Origin: Brevundimonas vesicularis NBRC 12165
Lineage (GTDB): Bacteria > Pseudomonadota > Alphaproteobacteria > Caulobacterales > Caulobacteraceae
Direction of reading: 5' to 3'
Length of the DNA: 64,000 bases
NCBI RefSeq assembly: GCF_001592205.1
Contig: NZ_BCWM01000008.1
Location: 62,001 to 126,000, forward strand
Below are positions 3,725 through 61,877 of this stretch, in pieces. The first letter of the stretch is position 1; each line of letters begins with the position of its first letter. Position numbers and translations under genes: made by a program. Below the pieces are notes generated by a model. The model was not told the origin of the DNA and did not search any database. It saw only the letters and a list, made by a program, of their open reading frames with translations.

Positions 3725-4306
3725 TCAGGCGGCGAACAGGTCGTCGTCGAGATTACGACGCGCGGCGTTGAGGCTTTGTTTGGCGGAATGGTTAGCGGAG
3801 CGTCCGGCAGTCAGGGCCTGAACGATCGCGGCGACATTGTCGCGCCCGGCGGGCGCAGCCGCTTCATTACGACGGTTCGAAGAGGGACTGGCCAGTCCCT
3901 GGATGCGTTGAGCAAGGGCCGCCATGCGATCGGCCCGCTCCTCGTCTTCGGTCGCGGCCGGCGCTGGAGCCAGGGCGGCCGGGGCCGCGCGACGGACGGG
4001 TTCGTCCTCAACAATACGCGCCGGCGCCATGGCCGGCGCGCGGGCGATCAGGGTCTCCAGCTGCGCCTTGACCTCACGCGCCTTGATAATCCGGTCGTGA
4101 AGCAGATCCGTTTCCTGGCCCGAGGCCCGAAGGGTGGCCAGGGCGTTTTCGGCGCGGCCGGCGGCGGCGTTCAGTTCGGTGACGGCCTGGGCGAAGGCCA
4201 GCTGGCCGGCGCGCAGGGCAGCCAGCTTGCGTTCCAGCTTGATGCCGTAACCGACCGCCGCGATCAGCAGCACCATCAGCACGCCGTCCATGATCATCCC
4301 GGCCAT
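3725..4306 (-). CDS. DUF6468 protein, flagellar-operon membrane protein
   Basis: 193 residues with one N-terminal membrane helix (MDGVLMVLLIAAVGYGIKLERKL), then a long helical, probably coiled-coil region (residues 25-95) and a disordered C-terminal half rich in Ala, Arg and Pro. The N-terminal part matches DUF6468, which is found next to fliL and fliM in Alphaproteobacteria and has no biochemically settled role. Its ATG overlaps the fliM stop codon by one base, so translation is coupled to the switch protein. It is probably a basal-body accessory factor. Confidence 0.75.
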   Translation of the reverse strand: MAGMIMDGVLMVLLIAAVGYGIKLERKLAALRAGQLAFAQAVTELNAAAGRAENALATLRASGQETDLLHDRIIKAREVKAQLETLIARAPAMAPARIVEDEPVRRAAPAALAPAPAATEDEERADRMAALAQRIQGLASPSSNRRNEAAAPAGRDNVAAIVQALTAGRSANHSAKQSLNAARRNLDDDLFAA

Positions 4307-5349
4307 CAGACGTTCACTCCCAGGCGGGCGGCGACTTCCGGATTGACCGGCCCTTCGACGCGTATGGCGATGTGCTGGCCCTTGCGCCCCATGCGGCCGG
4401 TGGTCAGCGGAATGGAGCCGGCGCGGATCGAGACCTCGGAATCCGGCGTGGCGTTCAGCATCATCGTGTCGCCGACCTTGAGGTTCAGCACGCTGGACAG
4501 AGGCATCTGCTGTTCGTCCAGGACCGCGCGGACTTCGGTTTCGGTCGTCCAGATCTCGGTGGCCAAGTGGCCTTCCCAGATGTTGTCGCGGCCGAACTTC
4601 TCGCCCATGAACTGCTGCAGCAGCATCTTGCGGATCGGCTCCAGCGTCGCATAGGGCAGCAGCAGCTCGATACGGCCGCCGCGATCCTCCATGTCGATCC
4701 GCAGCTTGATCAGGATGGCGGCGTTGGCGGGACGCGCGATGGCGGCGAAGCGCGGGTTGGTCTCCAGCCGGTCCAGGTTGAAGTGGACCGGGGTCAGCGG
4801 CTCGAACGCCTGGCGAGCGTCGTTCAGCACGACCTCGACCATCCGCTGCACCAGCACCCGCTCGATGGTCGTGTAGGGCCGACCTTCTATGCGCAGCGCC
4901 GCCGTGCCGCGACGACCGCCCAGAAGCACGTCGACGATCGAATAGATCAGGTTGGAATCGACCGTCAGCAGGCCGTAGTTGTCCAGCTCCTCGGCGCGAA
5001 ACACCGCCAGGATGGCCGGCAGCGGGATCGAGTTCAGATAGTCGCCGAAGCGGATCGACGAAATATTGTCCAGGCTGACTTCGACGTTGTCGGAGGTGAA
5101 GTTGCGAAGGCTGGTCGTCATCAACCGCACCAGGCGGTCGAACACGATCTCCAGCATCGGCAGACGCTCGTAGCTGACGAGCGCGGAGTTGATGATGGCC
5201 CGGATGCCCGAGCGTTCTGAACCGTCGTCGTCGCCCAGGTCGAAGCCCAGCAGGCTGTCGATCTCATCCTGGTTCAGGACGCGTTCGGACAGGGCGTCGC
5301 CGGGATCGCCCAGACCGCCGAACGGATCGAGTTGCGCCGCGTCCGTCAT
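4306..5349 (-). CDS. fliM: Flagellar motor switch protein FliM
   Basis: 347 residues. The N-terminal LNQDEIDSLLGFDLGDDD is the CheY-P-binding peptide of FliM. The CheC-like middle domain follows, then a C-terminal SpoA domain (WTTETEVRAVLDEQQMPLSSVLNLKVGDTMML) that contacts FliN. FliM forms the C-ring that sets rotation direction and receives CheY-P. It sits 2 bases after fliL and one base overlaps the DUF6468 gene, in one operon. Confidence 0.97.
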   Translation of the reverse strand: MTDAAQLDPFGGLGDPGDALSERVLNQDEIDSLLGFDLGDDDGSERSGIRAIINSALVSYERLPMLEIVFDRLVRLMTTSLRNFTSDNVEVSLDNISSIRFGDYLNSIPLPAILAVFRAEELDNYGLLTVDSNLIYSIVDVLLGGRRGTAALRIEGRPYTTIERVLVQRMVEVVLNDARQAFEPLTPVHFNLDRLETNPRFAAIARPANAAILIKLRIDMEDRGGRIELLLPYATLEPIRKMLLQQFMGEKFGRDNIWEGHLATEIWTTETEVRAVLDEQQMPLSSVLNLKVGDTMMLNATPDSEVSIRAGSIPLTTGRMGRKGQHIAIRVEGPVNPEVAARLGVNV

Positions 5350-5351
5350 GC

Positions 5352-6026
5352 CTATTGCACCAGCATTTCTTCGATCAGCACGGCATCGACCTTGCCCGGC
5401 GCGGCGATCAGATTGACGCGGCGCAGTATCTCGGCGCGCAGCTGATAGGTGCCGGCCGAGCCGCTGAGGTCCTCGGGGCGCAGTTCGCGCACGAAGCCGG
5501 TGAACATGTCCTGCAGACGCGGCATCTCTTCCTGCAGGTGGGTCGCCACCTCGGCGTCCTGCATCTCCAGCGTCAGCTTCAGCTTCAGGAAGGTCGGACG
5601 GCCGTCGGGCGACTGGATGTTCATCACCATGTCGGGCAGGGTGTAGAAGGTGACACCATCCGGCCCCTCGGCGATGACGCCCAGCGCAGAATCGGCCTCG
5701 CCTTCCTTGCCGCCTCCGCCGTGACCGCCGCCTTCCTTCTTCTCTTCCTTGCCCTCGGCCTTCTTGTCGGCCTTCTCTTCTCCGTGGCCGGCTTCAGCCT
5801 CGGCGCCGTGCGCTTCGGCGGGCTTGGGCTTCAGCATGAAGAAGGCCGCCGCTCCCCCGCCGCCCAGCACCAGCAAGGCGACCGGCGCGATGATGAACAG
5901 CAACGGGATTTTCTTTTTCTTGGGCGCGGCTGCGTCACCGTCGGCGGCCTCGCCTTCGGTCACTGCCGGCAGGTTGGCGTCGGCGTCGGCCGCAGGCGCA
6001 CCCTTCTTCTTGCCGAACTTGAACAT
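5352..6026 (-). CDS. fliL: Flagellar basal-body-associated protein FliL
   Basis: 224 residues: a short cytoplasmic N-terminus, one membrane helix (IPLLFIIAPVALLVLGGGGAAAFF), an unusually long acidic/Lys/Gly/His-rich linker (about residues 75-115) and a periplasmic FliL domain (FYTLPDMVMNIQSPDGRPTFLKLKLTLEM). FliL surrounds and supports the stator and is needed for motility in Caulobacter. It is the first gene of its operon; the upstream intergenic region contains a CtrA-like box, consistent with the class II (early) flagellar genes of Caulobacter. Confidence 0.95.
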   Translation of the reverse strand: MFKFGKKKGAPAADADANLPAVTEGEAADGDAAAPKKKKIPLLFIIAPVALLVLGGGGAAAFFMLKPKPAEAHGAEAEAGHGEEKADKKAEGKEEKKEGGGHGGGGKEGEADSALGVIAEGPDGVTFYTLPDMVMNIQSPDGRPTFLKLKLTLEMQDAEVATHLQEEMPRLQDMFTGFVRELRPEDLSGSAGTYQLRAEILRRVNLIAAPGKVDAVLIEEMLVQ

Positions 6027-6072
6027 GCGCGCGCCCCGGAGACTCTCTCATGGCGAGGATCGTCCGGTTTGG

Positions 6073-6088
6073 TTAACGCGACGTTTAC
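6073..6088. promoter_or_regulatory. CtrA-like box, 16-bp element shared with the fliF upstream region
   Basis: TTAA-CGCGACG-TTTA matches the CtrA consensus TTAA-N7-TTAA with one mismatch. The 16 bases TTAACGCGACGTTTAC recur exactly (as reverse complement) at 39700-39715 upstream of fliF. It lies about 47 bases upstream of the fliL start and 119 bases upstream of flgF, so it could act on fliL. Binding by CtrA is inferred from the Caulobacter consensus. Confidence 0.6.
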
Positions 6089-6092
6089 AATG

Positions 6093-6106
6093 GGCAGGAT
6101 TTGCCG
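6093..6106. promoter_or_regulatory. Near-palindromic FlbD-like (ftr) site
   Basis: GGCAGGATTTGCCG is a GGCA-N6-TGCC dyad, and its minus strand (CGGCAAATCCTGCC) resembles the Caulobacter ftr elements bound by FlbD. It is centred about 70 bases upstream of the sigma-54 promoter of flgF, a suitable enhancer distance, and close to the fliL promoter region. A sister site, GGCAGAAAATGCCG, lies upstream of fliF at 39678-39691. The assignment to FlbD is inference. Confidence 0.5.
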
Positions 6107-6161
6107 GGTTGGAAGCGGCCCGATCCCGCTCAAACCCGCATCGCGCCTGAATTAACCCTGT

Positions 6162-6176
6162 TGGCACGGCCGTTGC
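6162..6176 (+). promoter_or_regulatory. Sigma-54 promoter of flgF operon
   Basis: TGGCAC-GGCCG-TTGC is a perfect match to the RpoN -24/-12 consensus TGGCAC-N5-TTGC. The predicted transcript start is about base 6188, just before the AAGGAG ribosome-binding site (6191-6196) and the GTG start of flgF at 6207. This fits the class III rod and ring genes of Caulobacter, which need RpoN and FlbD. Confidence 0.92.
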
Positions 6177-6206
6177 GAGAGGCTGAGGCGAAGGAGCACG
6201 CCTCTC

Positions 6207-6947
6207 GTGGAAAACGCCGCCTATATCGGACTGTCACGCCAGATGACGCTGCGTCGCGAACTGGACATCGTGGCCAACAACGTCGCCAACGCCAACACCA
6301 CCGGCTTCAAGGTCGAGCAACTGATGCTGGGCACCGAGATCGGGCAGCGGGCGCGCAACGACTCGATCCGCCCGTCGGCCAGCTTCGTGCTGGACAATGG
6401 CGTCGGTCGCGACTTCGGCCAGGGTTCGATGCAGCAGACGGGCCGCTCGCTGGACTTCGCCATTTCCGGCGAGGGCGCCTTCTTCACCGTGCGTGATGGC
6501 GCCAACGGCGAGGCCTACACCCGCGACGGCGCCTTCACCCTGGATCCGGAAGGCCGTTTGACCACCAAACAGGGTCAGGCCGTCCTTGGCGGCGGCGCGG
6601 AGATCGTGCTGGACCCCGCGCTTGGCGCGCCCAGCGTCGGCGCCGACGGCACCATCACCCAGAACGGACAGGTCACTGGCCGGCTGTCGGTCGTGCGTTT
6701 CGATACGCTGGGCGTGCTCGAAAAGGGGGGCGACAGCCTCTACCGCAATAAGTCCAACGCCCAGCCGATCGAGGCCGCAGACGCCCAGGTTCATCAAGGC
6801 TCGCTGGAGTCCTCCAACGTCAATCCGTTGATCGAAATCACCAATCTCGTCGAGATCAGCCGCGCCTACGAGAGCATTTCCAAGCTGATCGAAAACACCA
6901 CAGACCTGAGCCGTCGCGCCGTCGAGCGCCTCGGCAAGGCCGCTTAA
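6207..6947 (+). CDS. flgF: Flagellar basal-body rod protein FlgF
   Basis: 246 residues. The N-terminal MENAAYIGLSRQMTLRRELDIVANNVANANTTGFK is the export and rod-assembly signature of the FlgE/F/G family; the C-terminal YESISKLIENTTDLSRRAVERLG helix pairs with it. The start is GTG at 6207, chosen because an AAGGAG ribosome-binding site lies 10 bases upstream and it gives the conserved N-terminus. It builds the proximal rod in the periplasm and is first in a four-gene operon with flgG, flgA and flgH. Confidence 0.96.
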   Translation: MENAAYIGLSRQMTLRRELDIVANNVANANTTGFKVEQLMLGTEIGQRARNDSIRPSASFVLDNGVGRDFGQGSMQQTGRSLDFAISGEGAFFTVRDGANGEAYTRDGAFTLDPEGRLTTKQGQAVLGGGAEIVLDPALGAPSVGADGTITQNGQVTGRLSVVRFDTLGVLEKGGDSLYRNKSNAQPIEAADAQVHQGSLESSNVNPLIEITNLVEISRAYESISKLIENTTDLSRRAVERLGKAA

Positions 6948-31494: not shown

Positions 31495-33612
31495 TCAGAC
31501 CTGGCCGAGGGTCCGCAACCGGGCCTTGGGGTGGATCTCGTTCTGGCTCATCACGACGGTCTGGCCGCGGAAGCGTTCGATGATCGAGCGCACATAGGGC
31601 CGCGTCATCGGCCCGGTCAGCAGCACCGGATTTTCGCCCGTCATGGCGATCCGCTCGAAGGTGTCGCGAACGGCGCGGATGAAGTCCTGAAGGCGCGACG
31701 GCGCCATCGCCAGCTGCTTGTCCTCGCCATTGCCGATCAGGCTTTCGGCGAAGGCGTTTTCCCATTCCGGCGACAGGGTGACGATGGGCAAGGCACCCTC
31801 GCCGTCCTTGTTCTGCCAGCACAGTTGGCGGCCCAGGCGCGCACGAACGTGTTCGACCAGGGTGGTGACGCTGGAACTGTGCGGCGCAGCCTCGGCAAGG
31901 CCTTCCAGAATGGCCGGCAGGTCGCGAATCGACACCTTCTCACGCAGAAGCGATTGCAACACCCGCTGCAGCGTCGTGACGGTGACCACGCTGGGCACCA
32001 GTTCTTCGACCAGCTTCTTTTCTTCGGCGCCCAGTTCCTTCAGCAGCTTCTGCACCTCCGCGTAGGACAGCAGATCGGCCATATTGTCTTTCAGGATCTC
32101 GGTCAGATGGGTCGTCAGGACCGTCGACGGATCGACCAGCGTATAGCCCCGGAACGTCGCCTCCTCGCGCAGACCTTCCTCGATCCAGGTCGCCGGCAGG
32201 CCGAAGGCCGGTTCGCGCATATGCTCGCCCGGAAGCTCGACCTGGCTCCCCGCCGGATCCATCGCCATCAGGTGGCCCAGCCGCACTTCGCCCGCGCCCG
32301 TCTCCATCTCCTTGATGCGGATGGCGTAACCCTGGGTCGGCAGGCGCATGTTGTCGAGGATGCGCACCTGGGGAATGACGAAACCGTATTCCTGGGCCAG
32401 CGACCGCCGCAGAGCGCGAATCTGATCGGTCAGGCGCCGCCCTTCAAGGTCGTTGATCAGGCTGAGAAGCGAATAGCCCAGTTCGATCTTCACCTCGTCG
32501 ATGGTGAGCACATTGGCGATGGGCTCTTCGACGTCCTCCTTGGGCTTTGCGGCCGCTGCCGCCGCCGCGATCTCCGCCTCTGTTGGCTGAGGCTTCAAGC
32601 GATTGCGGCCCAGCCGCCAGGCCATGAAGCCCGAGCCGATGGCCAGGGCCGCGAACGGGATCAGCGGCATACCCGGGATCAGACCGATCAGACCGGCGGC
32701 GCCCGACACCACGCCCAGCGATACCGGATTGGTCGCCAGCTGGGTGACCATGGCCTTGTCCGCCGTGCCTTCGACGCCCGCCTTGGACACCAGGAAGCCG
32801 GCGGCGATCGAGATGATGATGGCCGGCACCTGCGTCACCAGACCATCGCCGATGGTCAGCTGGACATAGGTGTTGGCGGCCTCCATCGCGGGCATGCCGT
32901 GTTGCAGCGTGCCGATCAGTATGCCGCCGATGGCGTTGATGAAGGTGATGATCAGACCCGCGACGGCGTCGCCGCGCACGAACTTGGAGGCGCCGTCCAT
33001 GGCGCCGAAGAAGGTTGATTCCTGCTCCAGCTCCTTGCGGCGCAGCTTGGCCTGGTCCTCGGTGATCAGGCCCGACGACAGATCGGCGTCGATGGCCATC
33101 TGCTTGCCCGGCATGGAGTCCAGGGTGAAGCGGGCGGACACTTCCGCGATCCGGGTCGAGCCCTTGGTGATGACGACGAAGTTCACCACCAGAATGATCG
33201 CAAAGATGATCACCCCGATGATGAAGTTGCCGCCCATCATCAGCTGACCGAAGGCGTTGATGACTTGACCCGCCGCATCGTGGCCTTCCTGGCCGTGGGT
33301 CAGGATCAGACGCGTGGAGGCCAGGTTCAGGCCCAGCCGGAACAGGGTCGAGACCAGCAACACGGTCGGGAAGATGGCGAAATCCAGCGGCCGTTTCATC
33401 ATCACAGCGGTCATCAGGATCAGCACGCTGGACACCAGCGAGAAGGCCAGCAGCAGATCCAGCAGGAACTTGGGCACCGGCAGGATCAGCAGCATGATCA
33501 CGCCGATCACGCCGACCGCCATCAGCACTTCGCCGCGGTTGACCCAGCCCAGGACGTCGCGACCCGTCGGGCGCGCCATGCCGTCCTTCATCATCACCGG
33601 CGTATCAGTCAC
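31495..33612 (-). CDS. flhA: Flagellar type III export protein FlhA
   Basis: 705 residues, starting GTG at 33612. The N-terminal half holds eight membrane helices with the FHIPEP-family hallmarks (FPTVLLVSTLFRLGLNLASTRLIL and TKGSTRIAEVSARFTLDSMPGKQMAIDADL). The C-terminal cytoplasmic domain docks export chaperones. FlhA is the core of the flagellar export gate. Its start overlaps the end of the beta-lactamase gene by 8 bases, so its translation may be coupled to that unrelated gene. Confidence 0.97.
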   Translation of the reverse strand: MTDTPVMMKDGMARPTGRDVLGWVNRGEVLMAVGVIGVIMLLILPVPKFLLDLLLAFSLVSSVLILMTAVMMKRPLDFAIFPTVLLVSTLFRLGLNLASTRLILTHGQEGHDAAGQVINAFGQLMMGGNFIIGVIIFAIILVVNFVVITKGSTRIAEVSARFTLDSMPGKQMAIDADLSSGLITEDQAKLRRKELEQESTFFGAMDGASKFVRGDAVAGLIITFINAIGGILIGTLQHGMPAMEAANTYVQLTIGDGLVTQVPAIIISIAAGFLVSKAGVEGTADKAMVTQLATNPVSLGVVSGAAGLIGLIPGMPLIPFAALAIGSGFMAWRLGRNRLKPQPTEAEIAAAAAAAKPKEDVEEPIANVLTIDEVKIELGYSLLSLINDLEGRRLTDQIRALRRSLAQEYGFVIPQVRILDNMRLPTQGYAIRIKEMETGAGEVRLGHLMAMDPAGSQVELPGEHMREPAFGLPATWIEEGLREEATFRGYTLVDPSTVLTTHLTEILKDNMADLLSYAEVQKLLKELGAEEKKLVEELVPSVVTVTTLQRVLQSLLREKVSIRDLPAILEGLAEAAPHSSSVTTLVEHVRARLGRQLCWQNKDGEGALPIVTLSPEWENAFAESLIGNGEDKQLAMAPSRLQDFIRAVRDTFERIAMTGENPVLLTGPMTRPYVRSIIERFRGQTVVMSQNEIHPKARLRTLGQV

Positions 33613-34510
33613 GGCCCAACGCCTTCAGCGCGCGACGCGTCGCCTCGGCGATCACGACCGCATTGGCGTCGTCCGATGTCGCCCGGGTGGCGTGGTAATA
33701 GGCGGCGACGATCACAGGTTGGCCGTTCGGCGGATACAGCAGGCCGATGTCATTGGTCGGCCCATAGCCCCCCGTCCCCGTCTTGTGCGCCACCCGCCAA
33801 TCCGCTGGCGTCCCAGCCCTAAGACGATTCTGACCCGTGGGCGTATCGGTCATCCACTGCAGCAACAGGGCGCGCGACGCCGCCGTCAGAGGCGAGGCCG
33901 GATCGAGGAAAAGACGGTTGAGATTGGCGACCGACTGGTTGGGAAGGATCGTATCCTTATCGCCGTCCAGACGATTCATCTCGGGTTCGAAACGGTCCGA
34001 GCGGGTGCTGCCGTCGCCGATGCCGCGATAGAAGGTCTGCATCGCCGACGGGCCGCCCATGGCCTTCAGCAGCAGATTGGCGGCGGGGTTGTCGCTGACC
34101 TCCACCGCGCCCTTCATCAACTGCTCGACCGTCAGGCTGGCGCCAACGGCGGGCTCGGTCACCGGAGCGTGGTTGATCATGTCCGCCGCCGTGATGGGGA
34201 TGCGGCGATCCAGTCGCTCCTGCCCGGCCTGCACCCGCAACAAGCTCGCGGCGGCCAGATACATCTTGAAGGTCGAGCAATAGACGAAGCGTTCGTCGCC
34301 GCGCCAAACCAGCTTACGGCCCGTCGCCGCGTCCTGAGCGACGAAGCCGAGACGGCCGCCATTGCGCGCTTCCAGGTCGGCCAGGTCAATAGCCTCGTCT
34401 GACAGACGGGCGGGCGCGACAGGGTGTGATTCCGCGCGCGGCGAACAGCCGACCGCGCTCAAGGCGGCCAGCCCCGTCAGGACGCATCGGCGCTGCACGG
34501 GTGCGCGCAT
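33605..34510 (-). CDS. Class A serine beta-lactamase
   Basis: 301 residues. Active-site motifs are complete: STFK (Ser70-x-x-Lys73), SDN (Ser130 loop, in VEVSDNPAANLL), EPEMN (Glu166 region) and KTG (HKTGTGGYG). The N-terminus RRCVLTGLAALSAVGC has a twin-arginine pair and a lipobox-like end, so Tat export or lipidation is possible. It hydrolyses beta-lactams; spectrum cannot be read. It sits between flbD (4 bases away) and flhA (8-base overlap), a position where a flagellar gene would be expected. Confidence 0.93.
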   Translation of the reverse strand: MRAPVQRRCVLTGLAALSAVGCSPRAESHPVAPARLSDEAIDLADLEARNGGRLGFVAQDAATGRKLVWRGDERFVYCSTFKMYLAAASLLRVQAGQERLDRRIPITAADMINHAPVTEPAVGASLTVEQLMKGAVEVSDNPAANLLLKAMGGPSAMQTFYRGIGDGSTRSDRFEPEMNRLDGDKDTILPNQSVANLNRLFLDPASPLTAASRALLLQWMTDTPTGQNRLRAGTPADWRVAHKTGTGGYGPTNDIGLLYPPNGQPVIVAAYYHATRATSDDANAVVIAEATRRALKALGRD

Positions 34511-34514
34511 GGGT

Positions 34515-35927
<1,413 letters not shown>

Positions 35928-35963
35928 CGTTCTTCTCCTCTAATCTTTAAAGCCGGTCGCCAA

Positions 35964-36296
35964 TCAGGCGCCCGAATCCTCGGCCTTGATGATTTCCGTC
36001 ATGGTCACGCCTAGCCGGTCCTCGACCACGACGACTTCGCCGCGTGCGATCAGCCGATTGTTGACGAAGATGTCGATCGCCTCGCCGACCTTACGGTCCA
36101 GCTCCAGCACCGAACCCTTGTTCAGCTTCAGCAGTTGGGCCACCGACATGTGCGACTTGCCCAGCACAGCGGAAATGTTGACCGGCACCTCGAACACGGT
36201 GGCCAGATCGGCGGCGCTCTTTTCGCCGGCGTCATCGAGGGGCGGGAGGCCCGAATTGCCGGAGAACTCCTCCAGCGCTAGGTCGTCGGATGCCAT
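35964..36296 (-). CDS. fliN: Flagellar motor switch protein FliN
   Basis: 110 residues. An acidic N-terminal stretch precedes the SpoA (CheC-like) domain: VFEVPVNISAVLGKSHMSVAQLLKLNKGSVLELDRKVGEAIDIFVNNRLIARGEVVVVEDRLGV. FliN forms the lower C-ring with FliM and docks FliH. It overlaps the end of flbE by one base and precedes flbD by 36 bases. Confidence 0.96.
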   Translation of the reverse strand: MASDDLALEEFSGNSGLPPLDDAGEKSAADLATVFEVPVNISAVLGKSHMSVAQLLKLNKGSVLELDRKVGEAIDIFVNNRLIARGEVVVVEDRLGVTMTEIIKAEDSGA

Positions 36297-36958
36297 CAGA
36301 GCATGCTCCTGTCGACGGGAAGGGTTTCGGCGTGTCCGGCTTCGGCGGCGAGGGCGGCCATCAGGGCCTCCGCAACGCGATCAGCCGAGCCTTGAGGATC
36401 GTGGTCGGCTCGCCCGTCCGCCCATTCAAGCTGGAACGCGGCCAAGGCCATGCCCGGCTCGTCACGGAACGCCACAACACCGGTGAAGCCGCTATCCGCA
36501 CAAGCGCGCTCGATCATCGATCGCACGTCTTCATCCAGCCCCGAGGTCCGAACGACCAGACGGGGCGAGGCGTCGATTTCCTGAGCCAGCATCTCAAGCG
36601 CGGCCTTCAGCGGCGCCTGGGGGAAACGCTCCATCGCAGCCCCGCCAATGGCGCGAGCGGCGGCCAGAGCCAGGTCGGCCGATTGTTCGCGATGCGCTTG
36701 AGCCACGGCCTTGAGCGTCGGCATGGCCGACGCAACCAACTGAGCGAGGCTGCTGAGAGCCATGGCGCGGATGTTCTCCACCTCGCCCAAGGCCTGCTCC
36801 CGGGCCTCAAGCCGCCCTTGCGCCACCAAGGCCTCGACCTCGGCCGGCAAATACGAGCGTTTGGCCGGTGTCCACGCGCTCTCGCGAACCACCGAGCCGT
36901 CGGCATCGAACTCGGTGTCGAAGGCGAACAGGCGCCGGATTTCGGGGGACTGGGTCAT
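36296..36958 (-). CDS. flbE: FliH-like export ATPase regulator FlbE
   Basis: 220 residues, mostly helical. The N-terminal region holds a coiled coil (EALVAQGRLEAREQALGEVENIRAMALSSL) and the C-terminal part resembles the FliH/HrpE domain (RLVVRTSGLDEDVRSMIERACADSGFTGVVAFRDEPGMALAAFQLEWADG). In Caulobacter the gene between fliG and fliN is flbE (fliH-type). It should link the export ATPase FliI to FliN. It starts just after fliG (1 base gap) and overlaps fliN. Confidence 0.85.
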   Translation of the reverse strand: MTQSPEIRRLFAFDTEFDADGSVVRESAWTPAKRSYLPAEVEALVAQGRLEAREQALGEVENIRAMALSSLAQLVASAMPTLKAVAQAHREQSADLALAAARAIGGAAMERFPQAPLKAALEMLAQEIDASPRLVVRTSGLDEDVRSMIERACADSGFTGVVAFRDEPGMALAAFQLEWADGRADHDPQGSADRVAEALMAALAAEAGHAETLPVDRSML

Positions 36959-36959
36959 G

Positions 36960-37994
36960 TCAGTAGATCAACTCGTCGTCCGAACCCTGCCCCGCCAGCA
37001 TGATCTCGCCCTTGGCGGCCAGATCCTTGGCGACCTGGACCATGGCCATCTGGGCGGCGTCCACGTCCTTCAGACGCACCGGACCCATCGACTCCATGTC
37101 TTCGCGCATGATCTTGGACGCGCGTTCGGACATGTTGGAGAAGAACATCTCGCGCAGCCCTTCCGACGCGCCCTTCATCGCAAGACCCAGCGAATCCTTG
37201 TCCACGGCGCGCAGCAAGGTCTGCACCCCGCCCGGATCCAGCTTGGACAGATCTTCGAAGACGAACATCAGGGCGCGGATGCGTTCGGCCGATTCACGAT
37301 TGCGCTCTTCCAGTGCGCCGATGAAGCGGGCCTCGGTCTGGCGATCGAAGCTGTTGAAGATGTCGGCCATCATTTCGTGGCTGTCGCGCTTGGAGGTCCT
37401 TGCCAGGTTCGACATGAACTCGGTGCGCAGCGTCGCCTCGATCTTGTCCAGGATCTCGCGCTGCACAGGCTCCATGCGCAGCATCCGCTGCACGCATTCC
37501 AGAGCGAAGTCTTCGGGCAGGCTGGTCAGGACACGGGCGGCGTGGTCCGAACGGACCTTGGACAGGATGACGGCGACGGTCTGGGGATATTCGTTCTTCA
37601 GATAGTTGGCGAGGACGGCCTCGTTCACATTGCCCAACTTGTCCCACATGGTGCGCCCAGCCGGACCCCGGATTTCCTCCATCAGGCCGTCGACGCGCTC
37701 CTTGGGCAGGAAGGCGGCCAGCAGCTTCTGCGTCTGTTCATAGCTGCCCATGACCGAGCCGGAGCCCGACAGGCCCGACACGAACTCGATCATCAGGGCC
37801 TCGACGGCCTCGGCGCTGACGTTGCCGAGCGTCGCCATGGCCTGGGAGATTTCCTTGACCTCGTCGTCGTCCAGCCGCTCCCACAGGGCGGTATGCTCCT
37901 CGCCCAGCGCCAGCAGGATGACGGCGGCCTTCTCCGGTCCCGACAGCTTGTTGGGATCGTCGATCGAGGCTTTCTTGTTGACCAGCTTCGCCAT
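36960..37994 (-). CDS. fliG: Flagellar motor switch protein FliG
   Basis: 344 residues, full length. The N-terminal domain ([26 protein letters not shown]) binds FliF and the C-terminal domain has the charged torque helix ([32 protein letters not shown] ... [24 protein letters not shown]). It converts stator force to rotation. It overlaps fliF by one base. Confidence 0.97.
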
Positions 37995-39634
37995 CAGCCT
38001 TCGGCCACCCAGGTCCGCAGGATGCCGGCCGCGTCATCGGGATGCGACTGAACGAAGTCGGCGACCTTCTTGACCGACGACGCCTTCACCTGACCCTCGA
38101 TGCGGGCGATGTCGATCTTCTGTTCCATCTCGCTGGGCGCCGGCAGCTGAACCAGCTGAGGCTGGCCGTCCGGGCCGATCACCGTGGTCGCCACGGTCGT
38201 GACCGGCACGCCGTTGACGCCCGCCAGCGCCGGCAGATTGGCCCCGCCGCCCGCTGCCGTCTTCAGCAGAGGACGCAGCACGAAGAAGATCAGCAGCAGG
38301 GCGACGACCGTCAGAATGCCCAGCTCGACGAAACGCATGATGTCGTTCTTGGAGAAGTCCAGCAGCGACGACTTGCCGTCCAGACCGCCCTCGATGCCGG
38401 TGTCGTGGTTGAAGCGGACGTTGATGACCTCGATCTTATCGCCGCGCGTCTCGTCGATGCCGGCGGCGGCCGCGACCAGCGACTTGATCTGGGCGATCTC
38501 CTCGGCCGTGCGCGGCGCATAGGTCGGCTCGCCCTTGCCGTCCTTGGCCGGCGTCCACTTGCCGTCGACCGCGACGGCGACGGCCAGCTTCTTGACCTCG
38601 CCCGGCTCCTTGGTCGTGGTCGTGGTGGTCTTGGAGATTTCGTAGTTGGTCGTCTCGGCGTTTTCCGAGTTGGTCGAACCGGCCGGCGTCGCGCCGGGCG
38701 CAGCCCCGCCGGGGATATTGTTCGTCGCGGTCACGCCGCCGTCGGGCTGGGCGCTGTTGTCTGCGGATTGCGAGCCGTTGGTCGTGGTCGATCGGACGAC
38801 CTGACCATCGGGGTCGAACTTCTCTTCCTGCGTCGTAGCGCGACTTTGGTCGATGTCGGCCGTGACCTGAACACGGGCGGCGCCGGCGCCGACGACGCCT
38901 TCGACGATGTCCTTGATGCGCGCTTGAAGCTGGCTCTCGGTATTGCCCTTGGCCTCGGCGGCGGACGCGGAGGTGAAGGTTCCGTCGTCGCTGCCGGCCG
39001 CCAGGGTGCGGTTCGTCTGGTCCGCCACGGTGACGCGGTCGGGCTTCAGGTTCGGCACGGATGAGGCCACCAGGTTGCGGATCGCCCGCACTTGGTCGCT
39101 GGTCAGGTCACGCCCGCCCAGGCCCACCAGAACGGCGGCGGTCGGTTCGCCGGCGGCCGAGGTGAACATCTCGCGTCGCGGCATGGTGATGTGGACGCGG
39201 GCGGCTGTGATGCCGCGCATGGACATTATGGTGCGCGACAGTTCGCCCTGCAGGGCGCGCTGTTCGTTCAACTGCTGCTGGAACTCGGTCTGGCCTAGCA
39301 CCGACTGGCTGTCGAACAGCTCGTAACCGACCGATCCGGATGTAACCAAACCCTTGCCCGCGACCAGCATCCGCGCCGTGCCGACCTCGTCGCGGTTGAC
39401 CATGATGGTCGAGCCGTCGCCCTTGGAGGAATATTTGATGCCGGCCTGATCCAGGGCGGCGCTGATCTCGCTGGCCTCGCGCAGATCCAAGTTGGAATAG
39501 AGGAGCGCGTCGGGCGCTTGGCCCATGCGCAGCATGATGGCGACCAGCACGGCGGCCACGCCTGCGGCGACGCCGAGGACCGCAGCCAGACGGCCGATCC
39601 CGAACTTCTGCAACGCCGCTGTGAAGCCGCCCAC
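37994..39634 (-). CDS. fliF: Flagellar MS-ring protein FliF
   Basis: 546 residues from GTG 39634, close to the Caulobacter length. Two membrane helices (near the start and about residues 430-450) flank ring-building motifs with [22 protein letters not shown], the [35 protein letters not shown] block and a Thr/Ser-rich periplasmic insert. The C-terminal tail binds FliG. A longer frame to 39772 would start inside the upstream hydrolase gene, so the internal GTG, preceded by a G-rich site, is preferred. It is the first gene of the early operon. Confidence 0.92.
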
Positions 39635-39677
39635 GCGTCCCCGCCCCCTACTCGCGGGAGACACGAACGCCCCGCTA

Positions 39678-39691
39678 GGCAGAAAATGCCG
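39678..39691. promoter_or_regulatory. FlbD-like site in fliF promoter region
   Basis: GGCAGAAAATGCCG, a GGCA-N6-TGCC dyad matching the fliL-flgF site (6093-6106) at 11 of 14 positions. In Caulobacter FlbD represses fliF through an ftr site near the promoter, which this location fits: about 45 bases upstream of the GTG start. Inference only. Confidence 0.5.
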
Positions 39692-39699
39692 CCTGGATG

Positions 39700-39726
39700 G
39701 TAAACGTCGCGTTAAGACCCGCTTAA
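39700..39726 (-). promoter_or_regulatory. CtrA box plus shared 16-bp element upstream of fliF
   Basis: TTAA-GACCCGC-TTAA at 39712-39726 is a perfect CtrA consensus TTAA-N7-TTAA. It overlaps the 16-mer GTAAACGTCGCGTTAA (39700-39715), so three TTAA-like half sites repeat every 11 bases. Caulobacter fliF is CtrA-activated. The box lies 78 bases upstream of the GTG start and covers the stop codon of the upstream hydrolase gene. Confidence 0.85.
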
Positions 39727-53523: not shown

Positions 53524-55110
53524 TTAGTTGGCCAGACGGCGGAGAAAGGATGGGATTTCCAGGTCGTCATCGGCCTGTCCCGCCTCCGGTTCTGGGTGTT
53601 GGACCGGTTGAGCCGAAGAGCGCGCCTGATGCGACGATTGCGGCGCATAGGACATATCTTGCTGAGGCTGGGTGCGCTTGCCGCGACCAAACAGGCTCCA
53701 GCCGCTGCGGCGGTGGTCACGGTCGTCGTAACCATCGTCGGCTTGGGGCTGCTGGGCCGCAGGCGCGGAGCGCTCATAGAGATCGCCTTGCGGCGCGACG
53801 CGCGGGGCCGGCGCGCGGGTTTCATATTCCTCGACCCAAGGATCAACGATGGGGTCCAGAGCGCGCGGCTGCGGCTCGGCGACGCGGATCACCGGCTCGG
53901 GGCGCGGTTCCGGTTCGCGAGCGGCAGGGGTCTGAAAGGTCGGCACAACCGGCGCCGCCTCGATGCGGGGCTCAGGCGCGCGCGGGGCTTCTGCGCGAAC
54001 GGGCTCGCGATAGGTGTCGCGGGTCGGTTCCGGGGCGCGCGAGGCTTGCGTGCCATACAGACCGCCAGCCGAGCGGCGCGCGTCATGACCGGCCAGCGGC
54101 GCGCTGACGGCCGGCGGGGCGATGGGTTCGATGCGACGCACTTCGCCCTCGTCCATGCCGGTCGCGACGACCGAGACGCGGATCTTGCCATCCAGGGCAG
54201 GGTCGAAAGCGGCGCCGAAGATGATGTTGGCGTCGCCGTCCACTTCCGCGCTGATGGCGTTGGCGGCCTCGTCGACTTCCAGCAGCGTCATGTCCAGACC
54301 GCCGGTGATGTTCACCAGCACGGCCTTGGCGCCCTTCAGGCTGGTCTCGTCCAGCAGCGGGTTGGCGATGGCGTTCTGGGCCGCCAGCAGCGCGCGGTCG
54401 TCGCCGGTAGCCTCGCCCGTGCCCATCATCGCCTTGCCCATCTCGGACATGACGGCGCGCACGTCAGCGAAGTCCAGGTTGATCAGGCCCGGCAGGATCA
54501 TCAGGTCGGTGATCGAGCGTACGCCCGAGTGCAGGACCTGATCGGCCATGCCGAAGGCGTCGGCGAAGGTCGTGCGCTCATTGGCGACGCGGAACAGGTT
54601 CTGGTTCGGGATGACGATCAGGGTGTCGACATAGCGTTGCAGCTCGGCGACGCCCGCGTCGGCCAGACGCATGCGGTGACGCCCTTCAAAGGTGAAGGGC
54701 TTGGTCACGACGCCGACGGTCAGGATGCCGCGATCACGCGCGCATTTGGCGATGACAGGGGCCGCGCCGGTGCCGGTGCCGCCGCCCATGCCGCAGGTGA
54801 TGAAGACCATGTGCGCACCTTCCAGGTGCTGATGGATCTCGTCAGCGGACTCCTCCGCGGCGTTCATGCCGACTTCGGGGTGGGCGCCGGCGCCCAGGCC
54901 TTGGGTGATGGTCTCGCCCAGTTGGATACGGCGATCGGTCTTGGCGAAGCTGAGGTGCTGCGCGTCGGTGTTGGCCACGACGAACTCGACCCCTTCAAGG
55001 CCGGCGTCGATCATATTGTTCACGGCGTTGCCGCCAGCGCCGCCGACGCCGAACACGACGATGCGGGGCTTCAGTTCAGTGTGTTGCGGCTTGACCAATG
55101 AGAGCGACAT
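53524..55110 (-). CDS. ftsZ: Cell-division GTPase FtsZ
   Basis: 528 residues. The tubulin-like core is clear: [16 protein letters not shown] (nucleotide loop), [24 protein letters not shown] (tubulin signature) and the T7 loop in [16 protein letters not shown] long, proline- and arginine-rich linker (about residues 330-500) with [12 protein letters not shown] leads to the C-terminal peptide [14 protein letters not shown] that binds FtsA. It forms the Z-ring. It is separated from ftsA by a TonB-receptor gene, and the upstream region has CtrA- and CcrM-type sites. Confidence 0.97.
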
Positions 55111-55163: not shown

Positions 55164-55239
55164 GAATCGCTTTGGTTATGAGCGCGTTAAGGATTGCGCC
55201 CATGAAGGTTAAGAGAAGGTTACGGCGATAATGTGAGTC
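55164..55239 (-). promoter_or_regulatory. ftsZ upstream region: CcrM GANTC sites and CtrA-like box
   Basis: GAATC (55164-55168) and GAGTC (55235-55239) are CcrM methylation sites, and TTAA-GAGAAGG-TTAC (55209-55223) matches CtrA's TTAA-N7-TTAA with one mismatch. In Caulobacter, ftsZ transcription responds to CtrA and to GANTC methylation through GcrA, so this layout supports cell-cycle control. The 265-base region between ftsZ and the receptor terminator otherwise holds no gene I can support. Confidence 0.6.
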
Positions 55240-60948: not shown

Positions 60949-61877
60949 GAGGCGTCCTCCACCATCCACCGAACCAGATCGTCATAGCTCATCCCGGTAT
61001 GGGCGGCCTGCTCGGGCGCGAGCGAAGTCGGGGTCATGCCGGGCTGGGTATTGACCTCCAACAGGACCAGATCGTCCTTAACATCATCATAACGGAAGTC
61101 GGATCGCGACACGCCGCGGCAGCCCATGGCGACATGCGCCGCCTCCGCCTGACGCAGCGCCTGTTCGAACACATGCGGCGGCAGGACGGCCGGCAGGACG
61201 TGCACCGATCCGCCCGGCGCATACTTGGCCTCATAGTCATAGAAGCCCTTGGTCGGGGTGATGTCGGTGACCGTCAGGGCGCGCGGTCCGGCCGGTTCGC
61301 CCAGCACGGTGACGCACAGCTCCTTGCCGGCGATATAGGGCTCGACGACGACCTGCTCGCCGTAAGCCCAGCCCGGCTCCCCCACTTCGGAAACCGGACG
61401 GTTGGCGCCTTCGCGCACCAGGAAGACGCCGACCGACGAGCCCTCGGCATTCGGCTTAACCACATAGGGCGGGTCGATGACGTGGCGGCTGGCGACTTCG
61501 TGACGATCGTAGAGACCACCGCCCGGCACCTTAATGCCGGCCGCCCGCAGCACGGCCTTGGACTTGTCCTTGTCCATCGCCAGGGCAGAGGCCAGCACGC
61601 CGGAATGGGTGTAGGGAATCCGCAGGGTCTCCAGCACGCCCTGAACACAGCCGTCTTCGCCCCAAGCGCCGTGCAGACAGTTCAACACCACATCGGGCTT
61701 GATCAGACCCGAAAGCACATTGGCCAGGTCGCGCCCGGCGTCCACACGACTGACGCGCACGCCCTGCCGCTCAAGCGCCTGCGCGCACTGCTCGCCCGAC
61801 GAGAGGGACACCTCCCGCTCTGCGGAAAGGCCGCCCAGTAGGACGGCGACATGAAGATCTTTGAAATCGCGGGCCAT
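60936..61877 (-). CDS. ddl: D-alanine--D-alanine ligase
   Basis: 313 residues of ATP-grasp fold: [79 protein letters not shown] and [21 protein letters not shown]. It makes the D-Ala-D-Ala dipeptide for peptidoglycan. It is followed by ftsQ with overlap and sits 78 bases after murB, with a hairpin at the murB end. Confidence 0.95.

Follow-up and report, generated by a model that had tools for sequence, protein, structure and literature searches.

The closest described counterpart of the locus considered here is the fliF promoter of Caulobacter crescentus, which is controlled by CtrA and by FlbD. FlbD is reported to bind the site ftr4 and to repress fliF (PMC3930126), and deletion of fliX is reported to raise fliF-lacZ expression and to lower that of fliK-lacZ (PMC3096577). 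The full CtrA site is described as TTAA-N7-TTAA, lying near -35 in activated promoters (PMC4287350, PMC6180460). Variants of this box are known at other early flagellar genes of C. crescentus. For example, CTAA-N7-TTAA has been footprinted at the class II promoter of fliQ (PMC3751295, Table 2), and AAAA-N7-TTAA is reported at -35 of fliL (PMC11264516). The genes flgB and fliO are divergent, and one shared CtrA site is described as repressing flgB (Boyd and Gober 2001, cited in PMC6180460). How fliQ and fliL stay repressed during most of the C. crescentus cell cycle was called unknown in a 2024 paper (PMC11264516). A data set of FlbD binding in C. crescentus has also been described (Fumeaux et al., cited in PMC12421884).

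The Brevundimonas fliF promoter would share with that of C. crescentus the gene, both regulators and a dyad so positioned that its occupation would block the core promoter. The likeness to ftr4 concerns gene and placement rather than sequence: the dyad arms read GGCA/TGCC in Brevundimonas, in contrast to GGTA or GGAA/TGCC at 33 of 34 fliF promoters from other genera. A more distant parallel is the fliL2-fliF2 region of Rhodobacter sphaeroides (PMC6180460), whose divergent promoters share one CtrA site; the fliL-flgF region of Brevundimonas likewise has a CtrA box between two flagellar promoters that point away from each other. That study, however, reports neither FlbD there nor a role of RpoN in fla2, whereas in Brevundimonas the box appears to belong to fliL and the dyad to a sigma-54 promoter of flgF.

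The fliF promoter and the fliL-flgF intergenic region

The window, meaning the whole stretch of 64,000 nucleotides that was analysed, holds two exact copies of the 16-mer TTAACGCGACGTTTAC, at 6073-6088 on the plus strand and at 39700-39715 on the minus strand (Table 1). Both are intergenic by the reading frames, falling into the gaps 6027-6206 and 39635-39722. The initial annotation had described identical 16-mers outside genes, each followed by a dyad in the same order when read toward flgF and fliF, and this description is accurate. It had miscounted the dyad as GGCA-N6-TGCC at a distance of 4 or 7 bases; the sequence is GGCA-N5-TGCC, 13 bases long, and the gaps are 4 and 9 bases. Dyads of the NtrC type often have a 5-base centre of this kind. 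Each 16-mer fits the published CtrA box with one mismatch. The 11-base spacing of TTAA-like half-sites had been taken for extended CtrA binding, yet this period is ordinary because TTAA-N7-TTAA is itself the full CtrA site. The more general proposal, of flagellar promoter regions under CtrA and FlbD, has fared better: both regions are flagellar, and these two regulators are the best candidates.

Table 1. Features of the fliF and fliL-flgF regions, in window coordinates
Feature	Position	Strand	Remarks
CtrA box TTAACGCGACGTTTA of the fliF promoter; promoter-proximal half TTTACCAT	39701..39715	-	Presumed to lie over -35; TTAA-N7-TTAA with one mismatch
FlbD-type dyad GGCATTTTCTGCC, presumed ftr4-like operator	39678..39690	-	Overlaps the inferred fliF -10
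TAGCGGG directly 3' of the dyad, inferred fliF -10 region	39671..39677	-	TAGCGG in 26 of 29 aligned fliF regions
Third TTAA half-site, judged incidental	39723..39726	-	Shares bases with the stop codon of the hydrolase gene upstream
fliF, GTG start at 39634	37994..39634	-	TIGR00206, 258.1 bits (cut-off 129.75)
flbD, fifth gene of the minus-strand run fliF-fliG-fliH-fliN-flbD (34515-39634)	34515..35927	-	NF050807 (FlbD), 799.5 bits (cut-off 750)
CtrA box, read toward fliL as TAAACGTCGCGTTAA followed by CCAAA	6073..6087	-	TGGTTAA on the plus strand in 73 of 73 genomes
FlbD-type dyad GGCAGGATTTGCC, presumed flgF enhancer	6093..6105	+	All 73 genomes have an exact dyad
Sigma-54 promoter TGGCACGGCCGTTGC of flgF	6162..6176	+	Exact consensus match; 69 of 73 relatives have the strict form at nearly the same position
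flgF, GTG start	6207..6947	+	TIGR02490, 192.5 bits (cut-off 178.5)
fliL	5352..6026	-	NF009420 (FliL) match, 1.1e-40, below the curated cut-off
fliM, next after fliL	4306-5349	-	341.8 bits (cut-off 219.6)

The fliF promoter consists of the CtrA box, 10 bases, the dyad and TAGCGGG. The FliF encoded here shares 99% of its residues with the protein of Brevundimonas vesicularis S00192 and all of them with the one from Brevundimonas sp. ASV9, which places the window in Brevundimonas; the fliH match in the same run falls below its curated cut-off. A full CtrA site of the form TTAA-N7-TTWA and the dyad are both found at fliF in all 73 Brevundimonas genomes, with 25 bases from box start to dyad start in 72 of them and 24 in one. 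The core sequences were taken from all 73 genomes and the flanks aligned for 29, in every one of which the FliF N-terminus lies directly 3' of the site. Across 27 thinned fliF regions, the columns of the dyad have a mean conservation of 0.96 and those of TAGCGGG 0.97, whereas the upstream columns reach 0.42. Because the box and the dyad arms were found by pattern, their conservation in the aligned regions is partly a product of selection; TAGCGGG lay outside every search pattern.

With TTTACC taken as -35, a spacer of 17 bases leads to the conserved TGCCTA, and the dyad would therefore overlap the fliF -10. This spacing is suggestive only, and the -10 position inferred from it is provisional. 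The place of the third TTAA reads TTAA in one, GTAA in four and TTTA in three of the 29 aligned regions, and TTAA is found there in four of 31 named loci (L193-L195 and L207). An extended array of three CtrA half-sites was rejected on account of this poor conservation (1/29).

The flbD gene lies within the window, its model match exceeds the cut-off, and its product is the presumed ligand of the dyad. Exact GGCA-N5-TGCC occurs twice in the window, at 6093-6105 and 39678-39690, where 2.1 occurrences are expected by chance; the dyad alone is thus not significant, its conservation being what counts.

At the second locus, curated models place flgF-flgG divergently from fliL-fliM. Sigma-54 matches with at most one mismatch number 22 in the window against 25.4 expected, so that the flgF match taken alone carries no significance. 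From dyad start to sigma-54 element start, the distance is 67-69 bases in 69 of 73 genomes, 81 in three and 89 in one, and the spacer between the two has a mean column conservation of 0.50 across 37 thinned genomes. The fliL-side half of the CtrA box, TTAACCA toward fliL, is invariant, whereas the dyad-side half varies: it reads TTTA in 48 of 73 genomes, and a full TTAA-N7-TTWA is present in 51 of 73. This asymmetry is that of the C. crescentus fliL site, which is reported in the same orientation (PMC11264516), and the box therefore most likely serves fliL, while the dyad most likely serves flgF. The common order of box and dyad that had drawn attention to the two loci arises because the CtrA box is nearly symmetric.

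Two further elements were noted in this region. A CtrA-type half-site, TTAAC, stands at 6152-6156, its first base 10 bases ahead of the sigma-54 element of flgF. In 60 of 73 Brevundimonas genomes TTAAC occurs in the 16 bases preceding this element, and CtrA may thus possibly act on a class III promoter. A GANTC (CcrM) site within 6027-6068 lies close to where fliL transcription is expected to start, 29-32 bases downstream of the first base of the CtrA half-site of fliL, and 33 occurrences of GANTC fall at these offsets in the 73 genomes.

Repeats of the fliF module at fliQ and flgB

A fixed-register search of the window strain's own genome, allowing at most two mismatches, returned three places, all with zero or one mismatch; the reversed control gave two matches. 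The module pattern, TTWA-N10-GGHANWTNNTGCC, has exactly three sites in the same genome, at fliF, flgB and fliQ, of which the last two lie outside the window. Both genes were identified above cut-off (FlgB, 144.6 bits against 142; FliQ, 126.6 bits against 104). All three sites have the same dyad, GGCATTTTCTGCC, and the 24 bases ending in the dyad are identical between fliF and flgB. Judged by sequence, the true repeats of the fliF module are those at fliQ and flgB, and not the arrangement at fliL/flgF.

The same pattern was scanned in 46 of the 73 Brevundimonas genomes, where it has 129 sites: 46 of the fliF type, 42 at fliQ, 39 at flgB and two elsewhere. Sites were assigned to fliQ or flgB when they lay at most 150 bases upstream of a FliQ or FlgB match. 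Of the 46 sites of the fliF type, 25 have a neighbouring gene that was itself read, three have one known from named records, and 18 were assigned by site type. The site rows of the 46 genomes agree with the per-genome counts (sum 129). The reversed pattern matched once in these genomes and three times in all 80 genomes scanned. In the 46 genomes scanned, this 27-base pattern of fixed spacing thus resembles a precise promoter code that marks almost exclusively early flagellar operons.

All three genes carry the module in 35 of the 46 genomes, and the pattern is absent from fliQ in four and from flgB in seven. Upstream regions of fliQ and flgB were read for 20 genomes each. Eight of the 11 cases missed by the pattern have an in-register dyad or near-dyad; no dyad was found in the other three, namely at fliQ of G083 and at flgB of G219 and G177.

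These observed sequences, with their positions, conservation and genome-wide specificity, can be assembled into a proposed mechanism. CtrA bound at TTAA-N7-TTTA over the -35 would switch on the run from fliF through fliG, fliH and fliN to flbD. When the basal structure has been finished, FlbD, itself a product of that run, would bind the 13-base dyad over the presumed -10 and shut the promoter off, closing a negative feedback loop; at the same time, it would activate the sigma-54 gene flgF from the upstream dyad. The rigid layout of proximal CtrA half-site, 10 bases and dyad recurs at fliQ and flgB, and all three operons would consequently shut off together. We are fairly confident of the overall reading: a class II fliF promoter turned on by CtrA and off by FlbD, a layout shared by fliQ and flgB, and two 16-mers that converged, the second being the CtrA box of fliL next to a dyad that acts as flgF enhancer. 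In Brevundimonas, the module, which stands almost only 5' of three early flagellar operons, probably shuts them off after the flagellum base has been built.

As the principal alternative, the dyad may bind a protein other than FlbD, such as another NtrC-type activator or a MucR-type repressor, but its distribution makes this unlikely. As would be expected of an FlbD site, the dyad of the module keeps almost entirely to flagellar genes and stands near a sigma-54 element or over a presumed core promoter: 127 of the 129 module sites are at fliF, fliQ and flgB, and a further dyad lies in the fliL-flgF region beside the flgF sigma-54 element. This confinement, the proximity to sigma-54, the presence of flbD in the fliF run and the reported repression of fliF by FlbD at ftr4 (PMC3930126) together point to FlbD as the ligand.

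Identity of the two 16-mers

The identity of the 16-mers calls for an explanation of its own. In the window, TTAACGCGACGTTTAC has no third place at three or fewer mismatches, shuffled sequences giving a mean expectation of 0.19. Two or fewer mismatches yield just two places in the whole genome of 3,358,429 bases, with no match for the reversed control. Thus, the many copies at unrelated genes that the initial annotation had named as grounds against it do not exist. That the match is not due to chance holds if the two are treated as anonymous 16-mers, but not if they are treated as two CtrA boxes, in which case it is mostly explained.

The initial annotation had proposed one composite module used twice, and a duplicated CtrA-FlbD module working in the same way at fliF and at flgF/fliL would account for 16 identical bases, for a dyad that comes after the box in both places and for the occurrence of only two copies genome-wide. 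Nevertheless, this explanation is very improbable. The loci differ in the orientation of the box, in its spacing to the dyad and in the presumed role of the dyad. Box start and dyad start are 25 bases apart at fliF and 20-21 at fliL/flgF, the other half-site is the conserved one, and the inferred promoter direction is opposite. Moreover, the fliF and fliL boxes are identical within only 12 of 73 Brevundimonas genomes, all of them close relatives of the window strain with at least 90% FlgF identity.

Copies of one module would also be expected to be closer to each other within genomes than between them, with the same spacing and orientation. The mean distance between the fliF and fliL boxes of one genome is 3.52 bases across the 73 genomes, against 3.64 for shuffled pairs, and 385 of 5000 shuffles were as low. 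Since the similarity within genomes is so little above that of shuffled pairs, the 16-mers are not regarded as copies, and duplication or gene conversion was rejected on the same comparison. The boxes are constrained at both loci: 9 of 16 columns are invariant among the 28 distinct fliF boxes of the 73 genomes, and four are invariant among the 30 distinct fliL boxes, with five more alike in at least 28 of 30. Identical cross pairs between distinct fliF and fliL boxes number five of 840. The identity is most likely a convergence, within one clade, of two CtrA boxes whose ends are mostly fixed.

Also very improbable is a shared SciP half-site in the CtrA spacer serving repression in swarmer cells. 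The 16-mer does include GCGAC, the SciP half motif given in PMC4287350, but among the 73 genomes just 15 have GCGAC in the fliF box and 16 in the fliL box, which led to its rejection as the cause of the identity. SciP motifs are, moreover, reported in that source mainly at -60 to -90 rather than within a -35 box.

Distribution across genera and other candidate sites

The fliF element extends beyond Brevundimonas. All 34 fliF regions from other genera have a GG[TAC]A-N5-TGCC dyad with a CtrA-like box at the same offset, matching 6-8 of the 8 half-site letters. The mean CtrA half-site score at that offset is 6.76 of 8, compared with at most 4.62 at other offsets between -60 and +29; where a region had more than one candidate, the dyad with the best CtrA score was picked, which biases this comparison toward the reported register. 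The consistent presence of the dyad at fliF in these 34 genomes suggests that it is the same element as ftr4 of C. crescentus. Among named fliF loci, 30 of 31 have the dyad, including one from a Ponticaulis; the dyad of L214 is one base short, and the box of L213 is one base closer.

At fliQ and flgB, the genera differ. Nine genomes of the groups g22 (probably Caulobacter, judging by the published fliQ site) and g6 (Phenylobacterium) have one module site each, accounted for by fliF. No dyad was found at fliQ in the eight of these nine genomes read there, where a CtrA-like box is present, and none at flgB in the six read there, which have a different CtrA box. The published C. crescentus fliQ site, CTAACGCCCTGTTAACCA, occurs in one genome (G077). 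Brevundimonas likewise has a CtrA box at fliQ, but with the dyad added in 42 of 46 genomes. Its flgB region is also divergent and furnished with CtrA boxes, as in C. crescentus (the frame at L243 was read as FliO by eye); unlike the repressed C. crescentus flgB, however, it has an activator-type layout with the dyad in 39 of 46 genomes.

Some other genera occupy an intermediate position. In g14 (Asticcacaulis), related composites stand at fliQ and at a rod gene read as flgB (L003-L024). The groups g3, g7 and g9 have a dyad or near-dyad at flgB, and two g3 genomes have the module just upstream of fliQ. A stricter CtrA-dyad composite was found in 26 of 226 genomes from other genera, chiefly g14, the genes being read for L003-L024; single matches occur in G010, G053, G214 and G215. 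The distance of the flgF dyad also differs by genus; outside Brevundimonas, the flgF region was retrieved from 26 of the 33 genomes that had given a match. As a separate observation, the g14 composite (L003-L024) recurs 5' of a conserved gene of about 285-315 residues to which no family was given.

This distribution raises the idea that FlbD feedback spread from fliF to fliQ and flgB in Brevundimonas, and partly in Asticcacaulis and a few neighbouring genera, having stayed confined to fliF in Caulobacter and Phenylobacterium. Completion of the basal structure would then, at a single stroke, stop three operons and start the flgF rod genes, and the one dyad between fliL and flgF would both enhance flgF and restrain CtrA at fliL. 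We put this extension forward tentatively, with slightly less belief than doubt. If true, it would explain in Brevundimonas the kind of fliQ and fliL shut-off left unexplained in Caulobacter (PMC11264516). In Brevundimonas, though not in Caulobacter, the dyad at fliQ is a concrete candidate for how that gene is repressed, and the repression of fliL could perhaps be explained likewise. The differing presence of the module at fliQ and flgB among related genera may reflect a rewiring of the assembly checkpoint. Among the papers listed by full-text searches of open literature, none has a title or abstract opening on an FlbD site at fliQ or flgB; the primary ftr papers lie outside that set, and such sites may already be known.

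Within the window strain's own genome, no pair of exact dyad and sigma-54 element exists besides that of flgF, and other FlbD enhancers must therefore be degenerate, of which one imperfect case was seen. A genome-wide scan gave 17 sigma-54 sites against 10 for the reversed control, and many of them are thus probably chance matches. By our own reading of gene names, an upstream dyad or near-dyad together with a plausible flagellar gene is found only at flgF and at a divergent pair by a flgK-like gene. The two sigma-54-like sites of this pair (L227 and L228, G000:C1:214054-214231) share one imperfect dyad, GGCAAAAAGTGGC, in the manner of a shared FlbD site; one precedes the rod-domain (flgK-like) gene and the other a second large frame.

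Three observations from elsewhere in the window may be added. A beta-lactamase-family gene (PF13354, 140 bits) at 33605-34510 stands between flhA and flbD, within the flagellar run. Two CtrA-like boxes at 55176-55223 lie just upstream of ftsZ (53524-55110, minus strand). Finally, a CtrA-like site at 61078-61092 lies inside ddl; its reverse complement, TTATGATGATGTTAA, closely resembles TTATGACGACATTAA, the CtrA site published for ftsQA of C. crescentus.
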